Shown one piece after another: positions 6,135-63,209 of a stretch of DNA of 64,000 nt (positions are counted from its first letter, which is position 1; each line of letters begins with the position of its first letter). This stretch comes from Oerskovia paurometabola (lineage in GTDB: Bacteria > Actinomycetota > Actinomycetes > Actinomycetales > Cellulomonadaceae), in NCBI RefSeq assembly GCF_016907365.1, contig NZ_JAFBBV010000001.1, positions 744,001 through 808,000 of the forward strand, read 5' to 3'. A program made the translations under genes and the position numbers. Under the pieces are notes generated by a model. It did no database searches and was not told the DNA's origin. It saw nothing but the letters and a program-made list of their open reading frames with translations.

Positions 6135-7885
6135 ACGTCGCCCCACCCGAGATGCCGCACGTCGTGGTCGTGGGGGGAGGGATCGGCGGCCTCGCCACCG
6201 CCGCGCTCCTGGCCCGGGGCGGCGCCCGGGTGACCCTGCTCGAACGCCACGAGCGGGTCGGGGGGCGGGCCGGGACGCTCGACCTCGACGGGTTCCGGTT
6301 CGACACCGGACCGTCCTGGTACTTCATGCCCGAGGTCTTCGAGCACTGGTTCGCGCTCCTGGGCGAGCGCGCCGAGGACCACCTCGACCTGGTCCCGCTC
6401 GACCCGTCGTACCGTGTCTTCTTCGAGCGGGCCTCGTCCAGCGAGCAGCCCGACGGCGCCACGAACCTCCCCCCGGCTCGCACCGTCCTCGACGTCACCC
6501 GCGACCCGGAGGTCAACTGGGCTCGCTTCGACGCGCTCTCGCCGGGCGACGGCGAGCGCATGCGGGCCTACGCCGAGGAGTCGAGCGAGGCCTACCGCCT
6601 CGCCCTGGACCACTTCCTCTACACGACGTTCGAGCGTCCCGACCGGGCCGTCGACGGCGCCGTGCTGCGCCGGCTCCCGCGGCTCGCGGCCCTGCTGGGA
6701 CGCTCGCTCGCGGACCGCGTCGAACGCCGCGTGCACGACCCGCGCCTGCGCCAGGTCCTCGGCTACCACGCGGTCTTCCTCGGCAGCTCGCCCTACCGGG
6801 TGCCCGCGCTGTACTCGCTCATGAGCCACCTCGACCTGGTCGAGGGCGTACGGTTCCCGCGCGGTGGGATGTACACGATCATCGAGGCCATGGAGAAGAT
6901 CGCCCGCTCGCAGGGCGTGACGATCCGCACGGCGAGCGACGTCGTCGGGATCGAGGTCGCGCCGCACGCTCCCATGCCCGACGGCGGAGCCTCGCCCCGC
7001 GCGCGGACCGGCAGGCCCGGGCGACGCGCGCGAGGCGTCGCGACCGGGGTGCGGCTGAGCACGGGCGAGGTCGTGCCTGCGGACGTCGTGGTGTCGGCCG
7101 CCGACCTGCACCACACCCAGACCGCGCTCGTGCCCCCCGCGTACGCCGACCTGCCCGCGCCAGCGTGGGACGACCGCGGACCCGGGATCTCGGCGCTGCT
7201 GATCCTCGCCGGCGTCCGTGGCGAGCTGCCCGAGCTGGCCCACCACTCGCTCTTCTTCACCGAGGACTGGCGGGGGAACTTCGCCGACGTCCTGGGCGAC
7301 GCGGCCGACAGCCCCGTGGACTCGTTGCGGGTCCCGTCCCCCGCCTCCCTCTACGTCTCGAGGACGTCGGCGACCGACGACGCGACGATCGACCACCCCG
7401 CTGCGCCTCCCGGCCACGAGAACCTCTTCGTCCTGGTGCCGTTCCCCGCGGACCCGGCGCTCGGTGGCTCGGCCGCGTCGCAGGCCGAGCTCGAGGAGCT
7501 CGCCGACGGGTACCTCGACCAGGTCGGCGCCTGGGCCGGGATCGACGACCTGCGCGGGCGGGTCGTGACCCGGCGGGTCCTGGGCCCCGCGCACTTCGCG
7601 ACCGAGTTCTCGTCCTGGCGAGGGACGGCCCTCGGGATGGAGCACACGCTCGCGCAGAGCGCGATGTTCCGCCCGCCGGGCGCCTCGCGCAAGGTCACCA
7701 ACCTCTACTACGCGGGAGCGGGCACGGCCCCTGGCGTCGGGCTGCCGATGTGCCTCATCAGCGCCGAGCTCGTCGCCAAGCGGCTCCTGGGCGAGACGTC
7801 CTCCCGGCCCCTGCCGTCCCCGCTGCGCCCCGGCTACCTCGCGGCGAGCCGCCGTCCCGAGCGACTGCGGGGCGGTGGCGCGTGA
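6131..7885 (+). CDS. crtI: Phytoene desaturase (lycopene-forming)
   Basis: This 584-residue FAD-dependent desaturase introduces the double bonds converting phytoene to lycopene. The Rossmann dinucleotide motif VVVGGGIGGLATAALLARGG is at residues 11-30 and the family C-terminal signature YYAGAGTAPGVGLPMCLISAE near residues 525-545. An Arg/Pro/Gly-rich insertion around residues 280-302 makes it slightly longer than most CrtI proteins. The start is GTG at 6131 overlapping the crtB stop. The following crtYe start overlaps the crtI stop in the same way. Confidence 0.93.
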   Translation: MNVAPPEMPHVVVVGGGIGGLATAALLARGGARVTLLERHERVGGRAGTLDLDGFRFDTGPSWYFMPEVFEHWFALLGERAEDHLDLVPLDPSYRVFFERASSSEQPDGATNLPPARTVLDVTRDPEVNWARFDALSPGDGERMRAYAEESSEAYRLALDHFLYTTFERPDRAVDGAVLRRLPRLAALLGRSLADRVERRVHDPRLRQVLGYHAVFLGSSPYRVPALYSLMSHLDLVEGVRFPRGGMYTIIEAMEKIARSQGVTIRTASDVVGIEVAPHAPMPDGGASPRARTGRPGRRARGVATGVRLSTGEVVPADVVVSAADLHHTQTALVPPAYADLPAPAWDDRGPGISALLILAGVRGELPELAHHSLFFTEDWRGNFADVLGDAADSPVDSLRVPSPASLYVSRTSATDDATIDHPAAPPGHENLFVLVPFPADPALGGSAASQAELEELADGYLDQVGAWAGIDDLRGRVVTRRVLGPAHFATEFSSWRGTALGMEHTLAQSAMFRPPGASRKVTNLYYAGAGTAPGVGLPMCLISAELVAKRLLGETSSRPLPSPLRPGYLAASRRPERLRGGGA

Positions 7886-51782: not shown

Positions 51783-52073
51783 CGCGGCGCCGTCGGGCTG
51801 CTCCGCGTTCCCCGAGCGTCGGGACCCCGAGGTCCGCTCCACGGCTCGACGGGCCCTGTGACCTGCGGGTTCGAAGCCTCCGGGACGCGGGCGTACGATG
51901 GTTCACGACGTCGGGTCGCGGTAGCCCCGGGCTCCAACATCAGCCGCTTCGAGCGGCCTTCGCGCCGACAGGCGCTCCCGGCCCGGCGTCGCTCCCACCA
52001 CGACGTGAGCACCGTCCGGCCTGCCCTTTCGAGGCCCTCGGCGGCTCCCGCCGGTCGCCGCGAGCGATTGAAC
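51783..52073. other. Non-coding stretch upstream of the phosphate operon
   Basis: This 290-base stretch lies between the hypothetical gene and the phosphate-operon promoter. I see no convincing reading frame or strong hairpin in it. Confidence 0.35.
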
Positions 52074-52128
52074 GTTCAGGCGACAGTTCGGTTACATTTG
52101 ACGAGCGTTAGAGATGCGTTAACGCGCC
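52068..52128 (+). promoter_or_regulatory. Candidate PHO-box promoter region of phoU-like/pit
   Basis: TTGAAC (52068-52073) with GTTACA (52091-52096) 17 bases downstream is a plausible core promoter. GTTCAGGCGAC (52074-52084) followed by AGTTCGGTTAC (52085-52095) resembles the 11-base GTTCA direct-repeat units of actinobacterial PhoP boxes. Further GTTAG and GTTAA phases at 52107 and 52118 continue the 11-base rhythm. The region is less GC-rich than its surroundings. Confidence 0.45.
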
Positions 52129-52256
52129 CTCTCGGCGCAACTCACCACAGCGTCACCTTCCAACAGAACACCTGTGACATCCGGGTGACGATCGCTTCGT
52201 GCGGTCGTCATCTGCCTGTGAAAACCCACCAGCGTCCAGCCCTTTCGGAGCCTCCC

Positions 52257-52877
52257 GTGCGCTTGCGCCTCACCCCGCGCGATACCTCGTTCTTCGACCT
52301 CCTCGCCGACTCCGCTCAGCACCTGGTCACCGGGGCGAACCTCCTGGCCGAGCTGCTCGGCGCAGACCGCCCGACCCGCAAGGAGCTCGCCAAGAAGCTC
52401 GCGGAGACCGAGCACCTGGCCGACGACGCGACGCACACCATCATGCGACGCCTCAACCAGACCTTCGTCACGCCGTTCGACCGCGACGACATCTACGGGC
52501 TGGCCTCCGCGCTCGACGACTGCATGGACTACATGGAAGAGGCCGCGGACCTCATCGTCCTGTACAAGATCGAGGAGCTGCCCGCCCGCGTCGGCGAGCA
52601 GGTCCAGGTCCTGCAGCGCGCGGCCGAGCTGACCGCCGAGGCGATGCCGCGCCTGCGCTCGCTCAACGACCTCGCCGAGTACTGGGTCGAGGTCAACCGC
52701 CTCGAGAACCAGGCCGACAAGATCCACCGCAAGCTCCTCGCCGAGCTCTTCGACAACGTCTCCGACCCGATCCTCCTCATCAAGCTCAAGGAGGTCATCG
52801 AGATCCTCGAGCAGGCCGCCGACGCGTTCGAGAAGGTCGCGAACATGGTCGAGACCATCGCGCTCAAGGAGTCCTGA
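52257..52877 (+). CDS. PhoU-like DUF47 family protein
   Basis: This 206-residue, almost entirely helical protein shows the family pattern FFDLLADSAQHLVTGANLLAELL, HLADDATHTIMRRLNQTFVTPFDRDDIYGLASALDDCMDYMEEAADLI and NRLENQADKIHRKLLAELF. DUF47 proteins are encoded next to Pit transporters and are thought to modulate phosphate uptake. GTG 52257 has a CGGAG site. The pit gene starts six bases after its stop, so they form an operon. Confidence 0.88.
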   Translation: MRLRLTPRDTSFFDLLADSAQHLVTGANLLAELLGADRPTRKELAKKLAETEHLADDATHTIMRRLNQTFVTPFDRDDIYGLASALDDCMDYMEEAADLIVLYKIEELPARVGEQVQVLQRAAELTAEAMPRLRSLNDLAEYWVEVNRLENQADKIHRKLLAELFDNVSDPILLIKLKEVIEILEQAADAFEKVANMVETIALKES

Positions 52878-52882
52878 GCCCC

Positions 52883-53887
52883 GTGGAATTCGCTCTGGTC
52901 GTCCTCGTCGTCGCGCTCGCGCTGAGCTTCGACTACACGAACGGATTCCACGACGCGGCCAACGCGATCGCCACATCCGTCTCGACGAGGGCCCTCACGC
53001 CGCGCGCCGCGCTCATCATGGCGGCAGTCATGAACTTCGCCGGCGCACTCCTGGGGACCGAGGTCGCCGAGACCATCGCGACCTCGATCGTCGACCTCGA
53101 GGACGTGCCACCGCACACGGCACTCGTCGTGGTGCTGTGCGCCCTGGTCGGCGCGATCGTGTGGAACCTCATCACGTGGTGGTTCGGGCTCCCGTCGTCC
53201 TCGACGCACGCGCTCATCGGCGGCCTCGTGGGCGCCGGGCTCGCGGGCGGGCTCGCGATCTACGGCGCCTCGATCGTCGACAAGGTCGTCCTGCCGATGA
53301 TCTTCTCCCCGCTCGTGGGCTTCGGCCTCGCGTTCATCGTCATGGTCGGCCTGCTGTGGGCGTTCCGCCGCGCGGCCCCCTCCAAGACCACGCGCCGCTT
53401 CCGCCTCGCGCAGACCGTGTCCGCCGCGGCCATGGCCCTGGGCCACGGCCTGCAGGACGCGCAGAAGACCATGGGCGTCATCTTCATGGCGCTCCTGACG
53501 GTCGGCTGGGCGAGCCCCGACGAGGGCATCCCGCTGTGGGTCAAGCTCGCCGCGGCCGCCGCGATCTCCGCCGGGACCTACTCGGGCGGCTGGCGCATCA
53601 TGCGGACCCTCGGCCGCAAGATCATCGAGCTGGACCCGGCGCGCGGGTTCGTCGCCGAGTCCGTCTCCGCGATCGTGCTCTACGTCAACGCGTTCGCGCT
53701 GCACGCCCCGGTCTCCACGACGCACACCATCACGTCCGCGATCATGGGCGTCGGCGCGACCAAGCGCCTGTCGGCCGTGCGGTGGGGCGTCGCCAAGAAC
53801 ATCGGCATCGCGTGGGTCCTGACGATCCCCGCCGCCGCGCTCGTGGCCGCGATCATGTACTGGATCCTGTCGCCGATCCTGCTCTGA
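52883..53887 (+). CDS. pit: Low-affinity inorganic phosphate transporter (Pit)
   Basis: This 334-residue Pit-family permease couples phosphate (as metal phosphate) uptake to protons. The duplicated signature is visible as DYTNGFHDAANAIATSVSTRAL in the first half and ALHAPVSTTHTITSAIMGVGAT in the second, with GLPSSSTHALIGGLVGAG between. About ten membrane helices are predicted. GTG 52883 starts six bases after the DUF47 gene. A hairpin terminator follows. Confidence 0.93.
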   Translation: MEFALVVLVVALALSFDYTNGFHDAANAIATSVSTRALTPRAALIMAAVMNFAGALLGTEVAETIATSIVDLEDVPPHTALVVVLCALVGAIVWNLITWWFGLPSSSTHALIGGLVGAGLAGGLAIYGASIVDKVVLPMIFSPLVGFGLAFIVMVGLLWAFRRAAPSKTTRRFRLAQTVSAAAMALGHGLQDAQKTMGVIFMALLTVGWASPDEGIPLWVKLAAAAAISAGTYSGGWRIMRTLGRKIIELDPARGFVAESVSAIVLYVNAFALHAPVSTTHTITSAIMGVGATKRLSAVRWGVAKNIGIAWVLTIPAAALVAAIMYWILSPILL

Positions 53888-53895
53888 ACCGACCA

Positions 53896-53951
53896 GGTCG
53901 CCGGGCGGTGCGTCGCGGTCCGCGCGACCGGGAGCGCGACGCTCGGCGACC
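53896..53951 (+). terminator. Hairpin after pit
   Basis: GGTCGCCG (53896-53903) pairs with CGGCGACC (53944-53951), with an inner stem GCGTCGCG (53910-53917) with CGCGACGC (53935-53942). It begins eight bases after the pit stop codon. Confidence 0.65.
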
Positions 53952-54305
53952 AGGTCCAGAGCGGCCGCCCCTGAACGACGACGCCGGACGCAGGGCCCGG
54001 CCCGGCCGCGCGTCGCTCACGTCGGCGTGCACCCTTCCCGTATCGCGAGCCGAGGGCACGCCCGGGACGTGTCTCCCCGTAAAGAGCCCCCTGGGCAGCG
54101 GTGTCGCCCGGTGTCGCGCCGTGCCGCCCGAATGCCCCGTCGTGCCCCCCCCGTCGCCGCGCCGCGGGGCCCGCGGGCCGCGCCGTGCGACGCCCTCTTC
54201 CGCTCGTCGCCGTGTCCCAGGTGGTCGGACGGCAATTCTTCTTGCTCCGGACCATGCTCGTGGTAGGTGCGAGTTTCTCCGTGACGAAGTGAAGCAGAAT
54301 GTGTC
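53952..54305. other. Non-coding stretch between pit and the I36 operon
   Basis: This stretch of about 350 bases has very high GC and is composed of GC-rich inverted segments with no ribosome-site-supported reading frame. Base composition changes sharply near 54230, after which A and T become frequent up to the next gene. Confidence 0.4.
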
Positions 54306-54335
54306 TTGACACGCTCTGAAGGGGCCCAATAGGCT
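54306..54335 (+). promoter_or_regulatory. Strong promoter of the I36/lipoprotein/ABC operon
   Basis: A perfect TTGACA (54306-54311) and TAGGCT (54330-54335), spacer 18, predict a start near 54342 and a leader of nearly 140 bases. ACCGGTCGGT (54373-54382) in the leader is a TetR-type palindrome. The leader is unusually AT-rich for this genome. The start codon at 54480 has GGGGGA upstream. Confidence 0.65.
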
Positions 54336-54479
54336 TCCCGAGGTCGCCAACGAATGGCTCCGAAACTTAACTACCGGTCGGTCATTATTGGGACTTCTCC
54401 GAACGCCCGCCGGCACAGTTGACGTGCCGGATCGCTCTCGGAGATCTTTTGTTCACTCGATACATTTGGGGGATATCGT

Positions 54480-54857
54480 ATGCGCAAGATCAGCAAGCTC
54501 GTGGCCGCAGCAGCAGTCGCTGCCGCCATCGGAGGGGGTGGCGTCGTCGCCGCCGCGCCCGCCTCGGCCTCGTCCGACTGTGCCGCCGGGTATGCGTGTG
54601 CATGGGAGCACGCGAACTACAACCCGGGCAACGTCGGCAAGAAGGTGTCGTTCCAGTACGGGATCCCCGACATGCGGAACTTCGGGTTCGACGACATGGC
54701 CAGCTCGCTCAAGAACAGTGGACGCACGTCCAACGCCGCCTGGTCCCAGGACCTCAACTACACCGGTAGGACCTGGGTCCTGAACCGTGGCTACGTGTCG
54801 TCGGACCTGGCCGGCTCGTGGCTCCAGGACTCGATCACGTCGGCACGGTTTATCTGA
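54480..54857 (+). CDS. Secreted peptidase-inhibitor I36-family (beta/gamma-crystallin-like) protein
   Basis: This is a 125-residue secreted protein. The signal peptide (RKISKLVAAAAVAAAIGGGGVVAAAPASAS) ends near residue 31. The 93-residue mature domain has SDCAAGYACAWEHANYNPGNVGKKVSF and YVSSDLAGSWLQDSITSARF, the I36 (SMI-type metalloprotease inhibitor) pattern. It has two cysteines, probably disulfide-bonded. It is the first gene after a near-consensus promoter, and 14 bases before the first lipoprotein gene, so it is probably the most highly expressed member of the operon. Some I36-family proteins may be structural rather than inhibitory. Confidence 0.75.
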   Translation: MRKISKLVAAAAVAAAIGGGGVVAAAPASASSDCAAGYACAWEHANYNPGNVGKKVSFQYGIPDMRNFGFDDMASSLKNSGRTSNAAWSQDLNYTGRTWVLNRGYVSSDLAGSWLQDSITSARFI

Positions 54858-54871
54858 GACGCGACGGTTCC

Positions 54872-55756
54872 GTGAGGTCTGTGCGACTCACGGCCGGGTG
54901 CGCCCTCGCCGTCCTGCTGCTCTCCGGGTGCTCCGGAGCGGCGGCAGGCGGCGAGGCCGCGTCCGGCCGGTTCGACTCACCCTTCGCCCTCCCGCTCGAG
55001 AGTCGTTTCGTCGACCTCGCGCTCTACGGTGCTGCGGTCGACGCATTCATGGCTGAATGCATGGCGGAGTCCGGGCTGGAATACACGGTGGGGACATGGG
55101 ACGTGAATCAGCCCGCGGTGCACGCGTTCAGCGCTCTGGGATATCCGAACCTCGAGCGGGACGTTGTCGAAGAATTCGGCTATCGGGCGCCGAGGGACCC
55201 GCGTTTGATCGAGCCGCCGGCTGATCTTTCCGGGAGCATTCCACCCGGTGAGGAAGAGAGATACGCGAAAGCACAGCAGGCGTGCACGGAGGAGTCCCGC
55301 GGGCCCGTGCCGGACATCGCGTCCCCCGCCAACGTGCTGCTGCAGCTCAACGCCAAGAGTCAGGACATGGCCCTGGAGGACCAGCGCATCCGCATCACGA
55401 CGAGCGTCGAGCGGTGGCGTGAGTGCGTCGTGAAGGCGGATCCGCCGGTCGGCGACGCGGGCGGCACGCCCCTCGACTTTCGGGTCTCGGTGCTGAAGAC
55501 CGTGGACGCCCGTGAGGGCTGGGCGGGAACCGGTGACTCCCACATGCGGCCGGCGCCCGTCGACGAGGTCGAGGCGGCGAGGATCGACGTGGGGTGCAGG
55601 CAGCAGTCAGGTTATGACAAGGCGTTCTTCTCGGCCGTCGGTGAGGCGCAGGAACGCCTCGTCACCGAGCATGGAGAAGTACTCGAAGGGGTGGAGGACT
55701 CGATGAACGAGATCCAGCTGGCGATTGACCACTACGTGCTCGAGGGGCAGAAGTGA
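54872..55756 (+). CDS. Four-cysteine lipoprotein A
   Basis: This is a 294-residue lipoprotein: signal segment VRLTAGCALAVLLLSGCSG with lipobox LSGC, then an acidic, mostly helical domain. After the lipid-bearing Cys it has four further cysteines in AECMAESG, AQQACTEE, RWRECVVKAD and DVGCRQQSG. The same four-cysteine order and the C-x3-x-G and W-x2-C contexts occur in the next gene, so the two are diverged tandem paralogues. The start may be GTG 54872 or GTG 54881. The stop overlaps the next start by four bases. No known family was recognised. Confidence 0.7.
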   Translation: MRSVRLTAGCALAVLLLSGCSGAAAGGEAASGRFDSPFALPLESRFVDLALYGAAVDAFMAECMAESGLEYTVGTWDVNQPAVHAFSALGYPNLERDVVEEFGYRAPRDPRLIEPPADLSGSIPPGEEERYAKAQQACTEESRGPVPDIASPANVLLQLNAKSQDMALEDQRIRITTSVERWRECVVKADPPVGDAGGTPLDFRVSVLKTVDAREGWAGTGDSHMRPAPVDEVEAARIDVGCRQQSGYDKAFFSAVGEAQERLVTEHGEVLEGVEDSMNEIQLAIDHYVLEGQK

Positions 55757-56502
55757 GGGCGGGCGCGCGCGGTCGTGCCGCGGCCCGGTCGGGCCTCGTC
55801 GGGACCCTGGGGCTCGTGCTGCTGCTGAGCGCCTGCTCCTCGACCTCGGACGGGGTCGCCTCGTTGGAGGAAGAGGGCGGCGGCGCCGTGCGCGGGGGGT
55901 ACGCCGACGAGAAGACGGCGGACTACGCGGACTGCCTGACGGACGTCGGGTTGAGCGTGCACGCCGAGACCGAGGGCTCGTTCAAGGGGTTCCTCGTGAT
56001 CGAGGGAGCCCAGATCCTCGGAGACACGGACACCTCGCCGATCGGAGTCGACGGGGAGGACCGGGACGCGGACATCAAGAAGTGCCGTGCCGAGTTCTCC
56101 GGCGCCAAGGACCTGCTCGACGCGTCCACCACGGTCGACCTCCCCGTCGAGGACACGCTCGTCGACGACGACGTGGCCGCGGCGAGCCGGGCGTGGGCAC
56201 AGTGTGCCCGCGACGCCGGGTTCGCGATGATCGCCGACCCCGTCGTGGACATGGTGGTCATCCCCGAGGGGCTCACGGTCGAGCAGGCGCAGCAGCTCGG
56301 CAGCGCGTGCTCGAAGCCGATCGCCGACGCGGGCGACCCCACGCCCCACTTCGACTACCAGGCCGCCGTGAAGGTCGAGGGCGGCGGGCTGGACATCGCA
56401 CCGTACATGAAGGCGATCGAGGGACCGATCTACGCGAACGTCACGAGTGGGGGACCTCCGAGCGGGGGAGCGCCGTCCGACGGCGGCACGGAGGCCCCGT
56501 GA
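55753..56502 (+). CDS. Four-cysteine lipoprotein B
   Basis: This is a 249-residue lipoprotein with lipobox LSAC after a 24-residue signal. The mature part is acidic. Cysteines lie in ADCLTDVG, IKKCRAEF, AWAQCARDAGF and LGSACSKPIAD, matching the order and context of lipoprotein A. A Gly/Pro/Ser-rich tail ends the protein. The GTG starts inside the stop of gene A and its own stop overlaps the MacA-like gene. The context suggests a surface partner of the ABC machinery; the ligand is unknown. Confidence 0.7.
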   Translation: MRAGARGRAAARSGLVGTLGLVLLLSACSSTSDGVASLEEEGGGAVRGGYADEKTADYADCLTDVGLSVHAETEGSFKGFLVIEGAQILGDTDTSPIGVDGEDRDADIKKCRAEFSGAKDLLDASTTVDLPVEDTLVDDDVAAASRAWAQCARDAGFAMIADPVVDMVVIPEGLTVEQAQQLGSACSKPIADAGDPTPHFDYQAAVKVEGGGLDIAPYMKAIEGPIYANVTSGGPPSGGAPSDGGTEAP

Positions 56503-57956
56503 AGCGGATCGCCAAGCTCGTCATCGCCTTCAGCACGCTCGGCGTGATCGGCGCGGCGACGCTCGGCGGGACGTGGCTCGCCGGGGCGGACGAGGACGAG
56601 AAGAAGGCGTCGACCGAGGTGCGCACCGCCGTCGTCGAACGCGGTGCGCTCTCGGCGGGCATGCGGCTGACGGGGAACCTGACCCGCGGGGCGGTCACGC
56701 AGCTGTCCGGCTCCGGGGAGGGCGTCCTCACGGCCCTCCCCGCGGCCGGGGCGGAGATCGCGGCCGGGCAGGTGCTCTACGAGGTGGACGGGAGGCCGGT
56801 CTTCCTCCTGACCGGGACGACCCCCCTGTGGCGGGCGCTCAAGCTCGGGGACGCCGGCCCGGACGTGCTCATCCTCAAGTCCTCGCTCGCGGCCCTCGGC
56901 CACGACGTCGGCGATGCCTCCTCCGACGTCTACGACACCAAGACCTCGGACGCCGTCGCGGCCCTCTACCGTGCCGCCGGCAAGACGCCACCCTCGGAGA
57001 CGAGCGAGGGCAAGAAGTCCGTCGATGACGCGCAGGCCGGACTGGTCGCCGCCAACCAGGGGGTCGTGACCGCGAAGAAGGCGCTCTTCGCCGGGGACGT
57101 CCGGCCTGATGCGCTCACCATCGCCCAGGCGGACGCCGCTGTGGCAGACGCCGCGACGGCGCTCGACGAGGCGGCCGCGAGCGGCGCGAGCACCACGCTC
57201 CCGCAGGCGCAGCTCGATGCCGCGAAGAAGGCGCGCAAGGCACTCGACGCGCCGCCCGACCTGACCGGGCAGAAGCAAGCCGTCAAGGACGCCGAGCAGC
57301 AGGTCGTGGCAGCGAAGAACACGCTCGCGGTCGCTCGTGCGCAGTCGGTGGGGCCTGGCCAGGTGACCGTGCTGAGCTCTCCCTCCATCCGGGTCGAGAA
57401 GGTCGCGGGCCGCCTCGGAGGGGCGGCCAACGCCGAGATCGCGCAGTGGACGGGCATGACGACCTTCGTCGAGGCGCCCGTGACGGCGTCCCAGCAGGCC
57501 GCGCTCTCGATCGGCGGCGTCGTCCAGGTCCGTGTCCCCTCCGGAGACGTCCTCGAGGGGACCATCGCGGCCGTAGGCTCGGCGCCCGGTGCCTCGGCGG
57601 ACGCCGACGCCGGTGACGGCGAGGAGGGCGACGGCGGTGGAGGCGCAGCGGGGACGGGCGGGGACGGCGCAGGGGGCAAGACGGTCCTGCGGGTGGACAT
57701 CGCCGACCAGGCGGCAGCTGCCCCGCTCGCGGGGTCCGCGGTCACGATCGAGGTGTCGACCGACGTCGCGGAGGACGCGCTCATCGTCCCGGTGACCGCG
57801 TTGCTCGCGCTCGCCGAAGGGGGCTACGCCGTCGAGCGCGTGACGAAAGGCGATCGTGTGGAGCTCGTCGCCGTGGAGCTCGGGCTCATCGCGGAGGCAC
57901 GGGTCCAGGTCTCCTCGGACGCGCTCGAGGCGGGCGACCGGGTGCAGATCCCGTGA
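56499..57956 (+). CDS. MacA-like periplasmic adaptor with peptidoglycan-binding-like segment
   Basis: This is a 485-residue membrane-anchored protein: N-terminal helix (IAFSTLGVIGAATLGGTWLAG), then a beta-barrel/lipoyl-like segment (GVLTALPAAGAEIAAGQVLYEVDGRPVFLL). A PG_binding_1-like stretch follows (ALKLGDAGPDVLILKSSLAALGHDV), then a 130-residue coiled-coil hairpin rich in Ala, Lys and Asp, and a C-terminal beta domain interrupted by an acidic Gly-rich loop near residues 370-390. This is the actinobacterial variant of HlyD/MacA adaptors, lacking an outer-membrane partner. It overlaps both neighbours by four bases. Confidence 0.85.
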   Translation: MKRIAKLVIAFSTLGVIGAATLGGTWLAGADEDEKKASTEVRTAVVERGALSAGMRLTGNLTRGAVTQLSGSGEGVLTALPAAGAEIAAGQVLYEVDGRPVFLLTGTTPLWRALKLGDAGPDVLILKSSLAALGHDVGDASSDVYDTKTSDAVAALYRAAGKTPPSETSEGKKSVDDAQAGLVAANQGVVTAKKALFAGDVRPDALTIAQADAAVADAATALDEAAASGASTTLPQAQLDAAKKARKALDAPPDLTGQKQAVKDAEQQVVAAKNTLAVARAQSVGPGQVTVLSSPSIRVEKVAGRLGGAANAEIAQWTGMTTFVEAPVTASQQAALSIGGVVQVRVPSGDVLEGTIAAVGSAPGASADADAGDGEEGDGGGGAAGTGGDGAGGKTVLRVDIADQAAAAPLAGSAVTIEVSTDVAEDALIVPVTALLALAEGGYAVERVTKGDRVELVAVELGLIAEARVQVSSDALEAGDRVQIP

Positions 57957-58654
57957 CGACGGACGGCGCCCCGGCCATCGCGATCCGTGACGTCACCAAG
58001 GAGTTCCCCACAGGGGGCGGAACCTTGCGTGTGCTCCACGGGATCGACCTCGAGATCGGCCCGTCCGAGCACGTCGCGGTCGTCGGGCCGTCGGGGTCCG
58101 GGAAGTCGACGCTCCTGTCCATCATGGGCACCCTCGAGAGCCCGACCACGGGAGACGTCGTCGTGGGCGGTCGATCGACCGCGACGATGACAGACGGCGA
58201 CAAGGCGGCCCTGCGGTCGCGGGCCTTCGGGTTCGTCTTCCAGCAGTTCCACCTCATCGGACACGTGAACGCCACCCGGAACGTCGAGCTGGGCCTGCTG
58301 TACGCCGGGTTCGCGCCCAAGGAACGTCACGAACGAGCACGGCACGCCCTCGATCGCGTGGGGCTCGGCTCCCGCACCGACCACCGACCGGGGCAGCTCT
58401 CGGGCGGTGAGCAGCAGCGTGTGGCCGTGGCCCGAGCACTCGCGCACGACCCACAGGTGGTGTTCGCCGACGAGCCGACCGGCGCCCTTGACCAGGCGAC
58501 GGGGGCGTCCGTCATGGAGCTCCTGCGGGGCCTCAGCGGGACGGCGCTCGTCGTCATCACGCACGACGAGACGATCGCCGCGTCGTTGCCCCGGCTCGTC
58601 CGCGTGCGCGACGGGCGGATCGAGCAGGACGTCCGCCAGGGGACGCTCGCATGA
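57953..58654 (+). CDS. ABC transporter ATPase, MacB/LolD type
   Basis: This 233-residue ATPase has Walker A GPSGSGKST (about residues 44-52), a Q-loop in FVFQQFHLI, signature LSGGEQQRVAVARAL, Walker B VVFADEPTGALDQ and H-loop VVITHDE. The MacB/LolD group powers mechanotransmission-type exporters that expel proteins, lipoproteins or peptides. GTG 57953 overlaps the adaptor stop and its stop overlaps the permease start. Confidence 0.95.
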   Translation: MTTDGAPAIAIRDVTKEFPTGGGTLRVLHGIDLEIGPSEHVAVVGPSGSGKSTLLSIMGTLESPTTGDVVVGGRSTATMTDGDKAALRSRAFGFVFQQFHLIGHVNATRNVELGLLYAGFAPKERHERARHALDRVGLGSRTDHRPGQLSGGEQQRVAVARALAHDPQVVFADEPTGALDQATGASVMELLRGLSGTALVVITHDETIAASLPRLVRVRDGRIEQDVRQGTLA

Positions 58655-59826
58655 CGACGCGCCTGTCCTTCGCCGACATGGTCGGCACAGCGACGCTCGG
58701 CCCGAGGTCGCGTCCCCTGCGAGCCCTCCTGTCGATCCTCGGGATCGGGATCGGGATCGCCACGCTCGTCGCGGTCATGGGAATCGCCGGAACCAACCAG
58801 GCGCACACGCGGGCACAGCTCGAGGCCCTCGGGTCCAACGTGCTCGAGGTCGCGCCCGGCGACGGCCCGGACGGGGTCGTCCCGCTCCCCGACACCGCCT
58901 CGGAGATGATCCGCCGGATCGGACCCGTCGAGGGCGCCGCAGCGACCCGGGACCTCAAAGGCCTGCACGCGTACCGTACGGACCTCGTCCCCGGGACCAT
59001 GGGCAACGGGCTCACGGTCGCGGCCGTCGAGCCGGAGCTCGCGGTCACGATGGACCTGACTGTTGCCGACGGCAGGTGGTTCGACGAGTCGACCTCGGCG
59101 CTGCCGGCCGTCGTCCTCGGGTCCTCGACCGCCCGACTGCTCGGGGTGTCCAGCATCGGGCAGCGGGTCTGGATCGGCGACGCCTGGTACGGGGTGCTGG
59201 GGATCCTCTCGCCCTCGCAGCTCGCGCCCCAGCTCGACACGAAGGCCCTGATCGGTGACCGGTGGGCCCTGGCCAACGTCGACGAGGCGGCGATCACCAC
59301 GATCTACGTCCGCACGCGCAGCGGTGAGGCGACCACGGTCCGACCCGTGATCCCCGCCACGGCGAACCCCGCCGCACCGTTCGCCGTGAAGGTGGGGGCG
59401 CCGTCCCGGCTGGAGAAGGCGCAGACCGCTGTCGACGGCTCGTATCGGGCGCTCGCGCTCGGGCTCGCGACCATCGCGCTCCTGGTCGGCGCGATCGGCA
59501 TCGTGAACACGATGGTCATCGCCGTGCTCGAGCGGCGCGGAGAGATCGGCCTGCGCCGCGCCGTCGGCGCCCGGTCCGGGCAGGTGCGGCTCCAGTTCGT
59601 CGTCGAGGCGGCGCTGCTCGGGTTGGTCGGCGGTGTGGCGGGGTCGGTGATCGGTGTGCTCGTGACGCTCGGCTACGGGATCGCCACCGGCATGTCGCCG
59701 AAGGTCGACCTGTGGGCGGGCGTGGTGGGGATCGTCCTGGCGGTGCTCGTCGGTGCAGCAGCCGGCGCCTACCCGGCGTCGCGTGCGGCCAAGCTCTCGC
59801 CGACGCAGGCCCTGCGCGGCGCGTGA
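58651..59826 (+). CDS. ABC transporter permease, MacB/FtsX type
   Basis: This 391-residue permease has the MacB layout: one N-terminal helix (LRALLSILGIGIGIATLVAVMGIAG), a large extracytoplasmic domain of about 230 residues, and three C-terminal helices (ALALGLATIALLVGAIGIVNTM; LLGLVGGVAGSVIGVLVTLGYG; GVVGIVLAVLVGAAAGAYPA) with the conserved ERRGEIGLRRAVGA loop and C-terminal KLSPTQALRGA. It is the last gene of the six-gene operon and is convergent with the NUDIX gene. Confidence 0.93.
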   Translation: MTTRLSFADMVGTATLGPRSRPLRALLSILGIGIGIATLVAVMGIAGTNQAHTRAQLEALGSNVLEVAPGDGPDGVVPLPDTASEMIRRIGPVEGAAATRDLKGLHAYRTDLVPGTMGNGLTVAAVEPELAVTMDLTVADGRWFDESTSALPAVVLGSSTARLLGVSSIGQRVWIGDAWYGVLGILSPSQLAPQLDTKALIGDRWALANVDEAAITTIYVRTRSGEATTVRPVIPATANPAAPFAVKVGAPSRLEKAQTAVDGSYRALALGLATIALLVGAIGIVNTMVIAVLERRGEIGLRRAVGARSGQVRLQFVVEAALLGLVGGVAGSVIGVLVTLGYGIATGMSPKVDLWAGVVGIVLAVLVGAAAGAYPASRAAKLSPTQALRGA

Positions 59827-59860
59827 CGACGGTTGTCGGCCCGCTCTGGCACCCGCCACG

Positions 59861-60879
59861 TCAGTGCAGCGGCGGTGCGACCTTCTCCGCCGCGAGCACC
59901 CTCGGGCCCTTGGCCGTGTCCGCGACGTGCGCGACCAGCATCTCGCCCGGCTCCAGGAACGGGTCCCTGCTCGGCAGCGCGTTCGCGACCGGTCGTCGCG
60001 AGTGCTGGCCCAGGACGTCGAGCACCGTGGGCAGCACGGGCCGGTGGGTGCACAGCACGGTCGACCGCTCGGACTCGAGGAGCTCGCGCACCGTGCGTGC
60101 GACGCGCGACGGCGACCGCTCGTGCTGGGCCTCGGACAGGTGGTCGATCGAGATCCGGTCCAGGCGCGCGGCCTCGGCGTACGGAGAGATGGTCTGCTCG
60201 CAGCGGTTCCACCGGCTCGTGACCACGGCATTGACGCCGTACGCCGCGAGCACGGGCACCAGGGCGGCCGACTGCGCGTGCCCCGCGGGCGTGAGGGGCC
60301 GGTCCTCCTCGGCGCCGTGCCACGCCGCGCGGGTCACGGCCTTGCCGTGGCGGGCGATCACGACCACGCGGGTCGCGAGCCGGTCCTGGGCGAACTCCTC
60401 GGCCAGCGCCGCGAGCGGCCCGCGGTCCGCCTTGCGGGTCACGCGCCGGGCCGCGTCCTCGACGCCGAGCCACACGGAGTCGTCGATCTCGTCGACGGAC
60501 ACCGGGGGCACGGGCGCACGCGCGGCGAGGGGGCCCGCGTCGCGGACCCGCTTGGCCTGCCGCGCGGCCCAGTAGTGCACGCGCTTCACACGGCCCTCGG
60601 GCGTGAGGTACTGGAGCCCCGGCAGCGGTACGCCGAGGACGACGGGCCTGCCCGTCTCTTCCGCGACCTCGCGCACCGCGGCCGTCTGGAAGGCCTCGCC
60701 CGGGTCGAGCTTGCCCTTGGGCCACGACCAGTCGTCGTAGCGCGGCCGGTGCACCAGCTTGACCTGGAGCTCACCGTCGCGCACCCGCCACACGAGCCCG
60801 CCCGCGGACTCGATCACGGGGGCGTGGGGGACGTGCGTGGGGCCGAGCATGTCCACGAGCGGGGCGAACGAGGACGAGC

Positions 60880-60883
<4 letters not shown>
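59861..60883 (-). CDS. mutT1: NUDIX hydrolase / histidine phosphatase fusion (MutT1-like)
   Basis: This is a 340-residue two-domain protein. The NUDIX box [22 protein letters not shown] lies near residues 57-78 within a domain running to about 165. A histidine-phosphatase domain follows with the RHG catalytic motif [11 protein letters not shown] near residue 190, [12 protein letters not shown] and [10 protein letters not shown]. The mycobacterial MutT1 has the same fusion and genomic neighbourhood beside ppk, and removes 8-oxo-dGTP and diadenosine polyphosphates. ATG 60883 overlaps the ppk stop (ATGA). Confidence 0.92.

Positions 60884-63209
<2,326 letters not shown>

Follow-up and report, generated by a model that had tools for sequence, protein, structure and literature searches.

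A superfamily of four-cysteine lipoproteins encoded between secreted crystallin-like I36 proteins and MacB-type transporters in an accessory cassette of Oerskovia paurometabola

What brings a small secreted protein of the I36 type, two lipoproteins and a MacB-type transporter together in one tightly packed set of genes? This question is raised by a locus of Oerskovia paurometabola (NCBI RefSeq assembly GCF_016907365.1, contig NZ_JAFBBV010000001.1, positions 744,001 to 808,000), and the whole stretch of 64,000 nucleotides analysed here is referred to as the window. The six genes span positions 54480-59826 of the window (Table 1) and are arranged such that a 14-base gap follows the I36 gene and four 4-base GTGA/ATGA overlaps join the genes thereafter, coordinates which confirm what a preliminary description of this DNA had reported; likewise, its assignment of a secreted I36 protein, two four-cysteine lipoproteins and MacA-MacB parts agrees with the evidence from Pfam, lipobox motifs and cysteine positions. 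The same description had reasoned that tight coupling means one machine, and one conserved module is indeed supported, as the gene order recurs in many genomes, a recurrence which is more than chance.

No Pfam family was identified over cut-off for either lipoprotein. Lipoprotein 1 (lipoB) possesses the lipobox LSGC at Cys20 and the conserved residues Cys63, Cys138, Cys185 and Cys242, with a model predicting a mostly helical structure, and lipoprotein 2 (lipoC) possesses the lipobox LSAC at Cys28 and the conserved residues Cys61, Cys111, Cys151 and Cys186; in both proteins the four further cysteines are kept in the close relatives. Comparison with hhalign (94.5%, E 7.9e-8) revealed lipoC to be a distant member of the lipoB superfamily. 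From lipoB a narrower profile (A1) and then a second one (A3, a 62-row alignment) were built, and the four cysteines are the only positions invariant in 62/62 A3 rows. Exactly four cysteines were counted in 104 of the 106 domains matched by the lipoprotein profile, and a lipobox with a hydrophobic stretch ahead of the domain was identified by a simple pattern test in 102 of them. None of the 62 superfamily members matches Pfam at E 0.01, the lipoprotein profile found no match among PDB sequences at E 1, and the named copies are all called 'hypothetical protein', many copies being without a name. The superfamily occurs in 132 of the 221 genomes of the window's family and, at the level of the class, in 105 of 394 sampled genomes (57/221 and 26/394, respectively, with the narrower A1 profile). 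One locus (L184) carries a lipoC-type gene alone between I36 and pump, and Cellulomonas biazotea NBRC 12680 possesses a related cassette with a lipoB of 57% identity. On a plasmid of Streptomyces sp. NBC_01186 (L275) a relative of the lipoproteins is flanked by two annotated genes, one of the zeta-toxin family and one of I36.

To which genes are these lipoproteins linked? Around the matches 121 stretches were collected, the window included, in which genes were called by a simple script and located with profiles, the adaptor profile, derived from the window, being one that matches MacA-like adaptors in general as well. Among the 106 lipoprotein genes, 67 are preceded within 2.5 kb by an I36 gene of the same orientation, 64 are followed by ATPase and permease genes, and 42 are accompanied by I36, adaptor, ATPase and permease. 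A fairer count considers all 47 I36 genes of the 221 family genomes that reach 45 bits or more with the I36 profile A4 (a line of our own choice); they derive from 36 genomes, and close relatives and the three near-identical copies in genome G228 described below remain uncorrected in this count. In 40 of the 47 a lipoprotein gene follows directly in the same orientation, and 40 likewise have a transporter nearby, so that the rarity of MacAB genes near I36 and lipoprotein genes elsewhere, named beforehand as the finding which would speak against a joint system, was not encountered. Four further I36 genes have a lipoprotein gene within 5 kb in a different layout and three have none by A3, one of the latter being accompanied by the lipoC type (L184) and the other two, neighbours in L189, by none. 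As A4 was built from linked genes, a separate check was carried out on 20 loci fetched after A4 had been made, and 17 of these showed I36 followed by a lipoprotein on the same strand. Within the 17, L192 is without a pump, L187 stops at a contig edge, and L194 and L195 are near-identical copies of an A4 locus; the rest comprises L179 (divergent), L184 (lipoC type) and L189 (no lipoprotein).

Outside the family, 40 loci picked mostly by rank, not at random, showed I36 upstream of the lipoprotein in 24, a transporter in 7 and both in 3. The transporter is not an obligatory part of the set. Among these 40 loci, full cassettes were seen in one locus of an f34 genome (L239, with a weak I36 match, E 1e-5) and in two loci of one f17 genome (L081, L082); in L095, L096 and L100, counted here as loci without I36, a weaker I36 match lies shortly upstream. 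In four f35 genomes (L086, L089, L094, L097) the neighbours of the I36-lipoprotein pair are constant, by eye a helicase gene and a response regulator gene, in contrast to the movable cassette of the window. In a lipoprotein tree of 99 rows the gene architectures are clustered, with 23 changes as compared to 52.3 when shuffled and none of 200 shuffles being as low. With the root at the midpoint, I36 together with a transporter is found in either branch of the deepest fork drawn, I36-only clades exist, and one clade of 19 rows (100/100) is without I36 and has a transporter in 15 of 19 rows. Because pairs with I36 occur without a pump and one clade has transporters without I36, the lipoprotein is the hub of these gene neighbourhoods, and lipoproteins found with either partner in the absence of the other are what is expected of a bridging factor. 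The Oerskovia genome itself harbours a second locus (L083, contig positions 1437000-1453000) without I36, in which the genes of two four-cysteine lipoproteins, an adaptor, an ATPase and a permease adjoin a further ATPase-permease pair of the MacB type; the lipoproteins of this locus belong to the I36-free clade of 19 rows, and similar loci (L075, L079, L080) carry one to four lipoproteins.

Whether the I36 protein and its lipoprotein may also be physical partners was approached by comparing their distances, which correlate with r 0.80 across 35 non-redundant full cassettes; after removing the ATPase and permease distances a partial r of 0.45 was left, as high a value being reached in 0 of 2000 permutations. 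This co-divergence lends modest support to a physical pairing of the two proteins, modest because shared history is not fully removed.

What kind of protein, then, is encoded by the I36 gene? The window protein matches PF03995 with 40.1 bits (cut-off 21.1; E 3.6e-10, Pfam), and its predicted signal peptide, approximately residues 1-30 and ending in APASA, shows a Sec-type pattern. In 63 of 71 linked I36 open reading frames (not dereplicated) A-x-A is found shortly before the domain, a C-x5-C motif lies near the N-terminus of the linked domains, and PF03995 was found above its cut-off in five out of six I36 candidates taken from relatives, the sixth, L099, falling just under it. Searched alone against PDB, the window protein gave a weak match to crystallins (E 0.29); the 31-row profile A4 of linked I36 proteins matched spherulin 3a (E 1e-7), Protein S (E 5.7e-6) and others, and the solved relatives found in this way are beta-gamma crystallins, several of which bind Ca2+. 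The PDB sequence searches with I36 yielded no chain named as a metalloproteinase inhibitor among the matches. Since the profile matches Ca2+-binding beta-gamma crystallins, 'peptidase inhibitor' is a weak label for this protein, and protease inhibition, suggested earlier for testing, is a family label only. The canonical Ca2+ motif of beta-gamma crystallins is N/D-N/D-X-X-S/T-S, as given in PMC3551895. It is present in 29 of 58 non-redundant linked I36 domains (3.2 expected by shuffling) and at least twice in 18 of the 58 (0.1 expected), the other 29 domains having no exact motif; before dereplication it was found in 31 of 71 linked I36 proteins versus 3 of 25 other I36 matches of the same set. 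The window protein itself contains one exact motif, DDMASS, and one near-miss, QDSITS, and its AlphaFold model, built from 3 sequences, has a mean predicted local distance difference test (pLDDT) value of 37. As the protein carries a Sec-type signal peptide, MacB would not be needed to carry it over the cytoplasmic membrane, which modifies the earlier suggestion of I36 as MacB cargo as far as this crossing is concerned.

The transporter is MacB-type, with a permease carrying MacB_PCD (PF12704, 72.2 bits, cut-off 27, E 9.7e-20) and FtsX (PF02687, 71.9 bits, cut-off 25.5, E 6e-20) and a MacA-like adaptor alongside; the ATPase matches ABC_tran with E 6.8e-31 in Pfam. The adaptor gene is located between the lipoC and ATPase genes, and its product has an N-terminal hydrophobic anchor, a weak sub-threshold stretch resembling PG_binding_1 and a C-terminal part which matches a MexC-like adaptor of the resistance-nodulation-division type (E 2.4e-5), no adaptor domain of Pfam being over cut-off. 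In NCBIfam the ATPase is near the MacB, LolD and lactococcin-972 transporter models, all under cut-off; the MacB equivalog model, which describes the fused protein and has a cut-off of 966 bits, was missed by both ATPase (230.8 bits) and permease (82.1 bits).

The cassette is accessory. In 6/6 congeners the segment is absent at this site, and their flanks match with 90-97% up to position 53887 (53894 in G006) and again from 59852-59863; by our reading of the names, a PiT-type phosphate transporter gene flanks it on the left and mutT1/ppk1-like genes on the right. Between these flanks the congeners possess other sequence, from 0.14 kb (G003) to 3.7 kb (G006), and some harbour cassettes distinct from this one at other places (L167, L185). 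What lies between the PiT-type and mutT1-like genes varies within the genus: G003 has almost nothing there, G001, G002, G004 and G005 have a gene for a protein of 287-294 residues (the G002 copy without a Pfam match), and G006 has the gene of an ATP-binding cassette (ABC) exporter (ABC_membrane and ABC_tran) followed by a gene for a protein of 623 residues. In another genome (G228), three copies of an 8.79-kb segment with 99.97% identity lie at three distant places on one contig (L153, 5717-14506; L194; L195); they encode a sigma factor, two I36 proteins, a lipoprotein, an adaptor, MacB as a fused protein and a DDE transposase, and in one copy the left end is overlapped by a frame for an ISL3 transposase. 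In a related genome, G225 (L076, approximately 7045-7317), the same segment is shorter by about 120 bp and its I36 frame has no signal peptide, and the lipoprotein and pump of this locus are still matched by their profiles.

Upstream of the six genes a promoter-like site and a leader were recorded (Table 1). The near-consensus promoter proposed earlier holds for the perfect -35 element (54306-54311); its -10 element matches TATAAT at 3/6 positions, and a consensus promoter scan over 53850-60000 reported none. The leader, described before as AT-rich, is so by comparison with its neighbourhood, since the interval 54250-54549 has the lowest G+C content (58%, the remaining intervals having 63-80%) in a profile of 52000-61449, and still consists of G+C for the larger part. 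No Rfam match was obtained for it, and no obvious conservation was seen in the two closest relatives.

Table 1. Features of the cassette and its surroundings, in positions of the window
Feature	Position	Strand	Remarks
Segment absent at the site in 6/6 congeners	53888..59851		left edge 53887 (five) or 53894 (G006), right edge 59851-59862
Promoter-like site	54306..54335	+	TTGACA, 18-base spacer, TAGGCT; read from sequence
Leader	54336..54479	+	relatively AT-rich; without Rfam match; conservation not clear
I36 gene	54480-54857	+	125 aa; PF03995
Lipoprotein 1 (lipoB)	54872-55756	+	GTG start; 294 aa
Lipoprotein 2 (lipoC)	55753-56502	+	GTG start; 249 aa
Adaptor	56499-57956	+	GTG start; 485 aa; MacA/YknX-like
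ATPase	57953-58654	+	GTG start; 233 aa; MacB/LolD/YknY-type
Permease	58651-59826	+	ATG start; 391 aa; MacB/YknZ-type (MacB_PCD + FtsX)

The I36 genes with weaker profile matches in the same genomes form a second class, from which 26 loci were taken as a contrast sample (L136, L138-L151, L158-L165, L172, L173, L175). A lipoprotein gene was found in the fetched stretch at 1 of the 26, and at 21 of them a factor gene of the sigma-70/extracytoplasmic function (ECF) type, read in the same direction, has its end no more than 1.5 kb downstream; three sigma genes of this kind, one of them from the sample, were covered by the Pfam check. The second class together with its sigma gene is a possible secreted-protein/sigma operon. 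As exceptions outside the sample, two weak I36 genes precede two lipoprotein genes and a pump in L166, and a weak I36 gene lies a few kb upstream of a full cassette in L076, L153, L155, L194 and L195. An ECF-sigma match somewhere in the fetched stretch was found in 10 of 64 linked loci.

Which function would combine these parts? The reading that we prefer, though with somewhat less than even confidence, is that a crystallin effector is held by its cognate lipoprotein and expelled by a MacAB-like pump. According to this model, the cassette would be an accessory, exchangeable cell-surface device with the four-cysteine lipoprotein as its hub. The small I36 protein would be exported by Sec, would fold as a Ca2+-binding beta-gamma crystallin and would act outside the cell, other bacteria or their wall being its most likely target. 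The lipoproteins on the outer face of the membrane would bind the I36 protein, and MacB-type strokes of the adaptor-ATPase-permease pump at this face would drive bound I36 off the producer membrane, so that lipoproteins and pump would provide self-immunity and aid release, comparable to the role of YknWXYZ towards SDP and to the proposal for lactococcin-972-like loci. In favour of this reading speak the linkage of I36, lipoprotein and transporter genes, the lipoprotein genes that occur with one partner alone, the co-divergence of I36 and lipoprotein, the patchy and movable distribution, the Sec-type signals and the known analogues. More broadly, it is conceivable, with the greater weight of doubt against it, that a widespread and undescribed family of actinobacterial antagonism exists, one that combines a secreted crystallin effector dependent on Ca2+ with its own four-cysteine immunity lipoprotein and an optional MacAB-like expulsion pump in an exchangeable cassette at variable chromosomal sites. 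Several observations weigh against the preferred reading. The mature window I36 protein is not cationic, a count by eye giving 8 K/R and 8 D/E, its family matches are PF03995 and sub-threshold crystallin and PNGase_A_C only, no bacteriocin family was found for it in Pfam or NCBIfam, with no NCBIfam match at all, and PADLOC gave only ATPase and LolE-type matches. Furthermore, 5 of the 47 I36 genes show another layout or lipoprotein type and 2, the neighbours in L189, are without lipoprotein; an adjacent pump is missing from many I36-lipoprotein pairs (21 of the 40 loci from outside the family); lipoprotein distances follow those of permease (r 0.90) and ATPase (0.86) more closely than those of I36 (0.80); and I36 does not exceed the lipoprotein in variability (mean identity 0.31 versus 0.24).

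A role as coat or guard is nearly as compatible with the data as the self-protection reading. Here, the secreted crystallin would be protective, either as a Ca2+-dependent coat like Protein S of Myxococcus or as a decoy for proteases or antimicrobial peptides, the lipoproteins would anchor or receive it, and the pump would remove attackers, no self-directed toxin being involved. Spherulin 3a and Protein S, the best PDB relatives, are associated with stress in their Ca2+-dependent form, as PMC3551895 describes, and the proximity of ECF sigma factors to the second I36 class in 21 of the 26 sampled loci, as well as to some cassettes, points in the same direction; the accessory distribution, the multiple copies in one genome and the modest co-divergence of I36 and lipoprotein are somewhat better explained by a matched pair of effector and immunity protein than by a general coat, which leaves the guard as a serious though on balance unlikely explanation. 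An exporter with its cargo, as considered in the preliminary description, would detach I36, alone or bound to a lipoprotein, from the membrane or wall and pass it to the medium, the purpose of the protein lying elsewhere. Models for such a task exist in LolCDE, which extracts lipoproteins, and in MacAB-TolC, which releases a protein already exported by Sec, and the conserved gene order with its overlaps and the MacB and LolD models as best-scoring for the ATPase, though under their cut-offs, agree with it. The common occurrence of pairs lacking an adjacent pump outside the family and a whole lipoprotein clade devoid of I36 render this explanation rather improbable. Lipoprotein and pump could also form a sensor which reports ligand occupancy (I36 or an antibiotic) to a regulator in a BceAB-like manner, for which ECF sigma genes, or response regulators recognized by eye, near some cassettes or pairs would speak; as the window cassette contains no regulator gene and ECF matches, counted over the whole of each stretch fetched, were confined to 10 of 64 linked loci, other regulator types not having been searched systematically, a sensor seems very unlikely. 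Finally, the pair without pump and the lipoprotein without I36 might be taken for chance neighbours or general operon packing, an explanation to which hardly any weight can be given in view of the conserved linkage by which it is contradicted, namely the count of 47 I36 genes, the later-fetched loci and the recurrence in several families.

If the preferred reading of a crystallin effector with its lipoprotein and pump holds, the cassette may represent a new kind of self-protection or attack system. A lipoprotein superfamily present in many genomes, without a Pfam match and with a fixed place between secreted crystallin genes and MacAB-like pumps, provides a handle on the substrates of MacAB-like systems in bacteria that have no outer membrane, on the real role of actinomycete 'I36 inhibitors' and on microbial crystallins as weapons or shields.

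How does the cassette compare to known systems? No published description of it was found among open-licence papers, in line with the earlier statement that no described system with this content was known to its author. In lantibiotic immunity, LanI and LanFEG combine a lipoprotein and an ABC transporter to protect the producer, as proposed here; their transporter is of another type, and the cassette has no lanthipeptide. With MacAB-TolC the cassette shares an adaptor and a MacB_PCD/FtsX transporter, and many relatives fuse ATPase and permease in one frame of approximately 630-665 residues like E. coli MacB, whereas in the window the two are split; no TolC is to be expected in the Gram-positive group of the window. 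The profile match and the canonical Ca2+ motif in half of the linked I36 proteins are shared with beta-gamma crystallins (spherulin 3a, Protein S, clostrillin, M-crystallin), from which the cassette proteins differ by the Sec-type signal, the C-x5-C near the N-terminus and the operon with a lipoprotein. The peptidase inhibitor family I36 (SMPI) shares the PF03995 domain over cut-off and differs in that no chain named metalloproteinase inhibitor was among the I36 matches in PDB. The closest working analogue is YknWXYZ of Bacillus, likewise from a Gram-positive host, with separate ATPase and MacB-type permease and a membrane-anchored adaptor. Protection from a secreted killing factor, which PMC4887032 documents for YknWXYZ and SDP, would be shared at the level of the proposal, and YknWXYZ is listed under the ECF factor sigma-W in PMC8144471. 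The cassette differs in adding four-cysteine lipoproteins and a linked secreted crystallin gene, and for the Yip1-family component YknW no Yip1 domain was found in the six cassette proteins at E 0.1 (Pfam). Lactococcin-972-like loci, including streptococcin B (ScbABC), comprise, according to PMC11796350, an operon in which the gene of a small Sec-secreted beta-protein precedes accessory genes and ABC genes, for which roles in immunity and transport are predicted and themselves unverified. The same plan is followed by the cassette, its secreted protein being of the PF03995/crystallin type instead and adaptor and lipoproteins being additional; its ATPase reaches 173.4 bits as compared to the TIGR03608 cut-off of 254.85, and its I36 protein is without an NCBIfam match. 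The cassette at best works like YknWXYZ and the lactococcin-972-like loci and is a member of neither.

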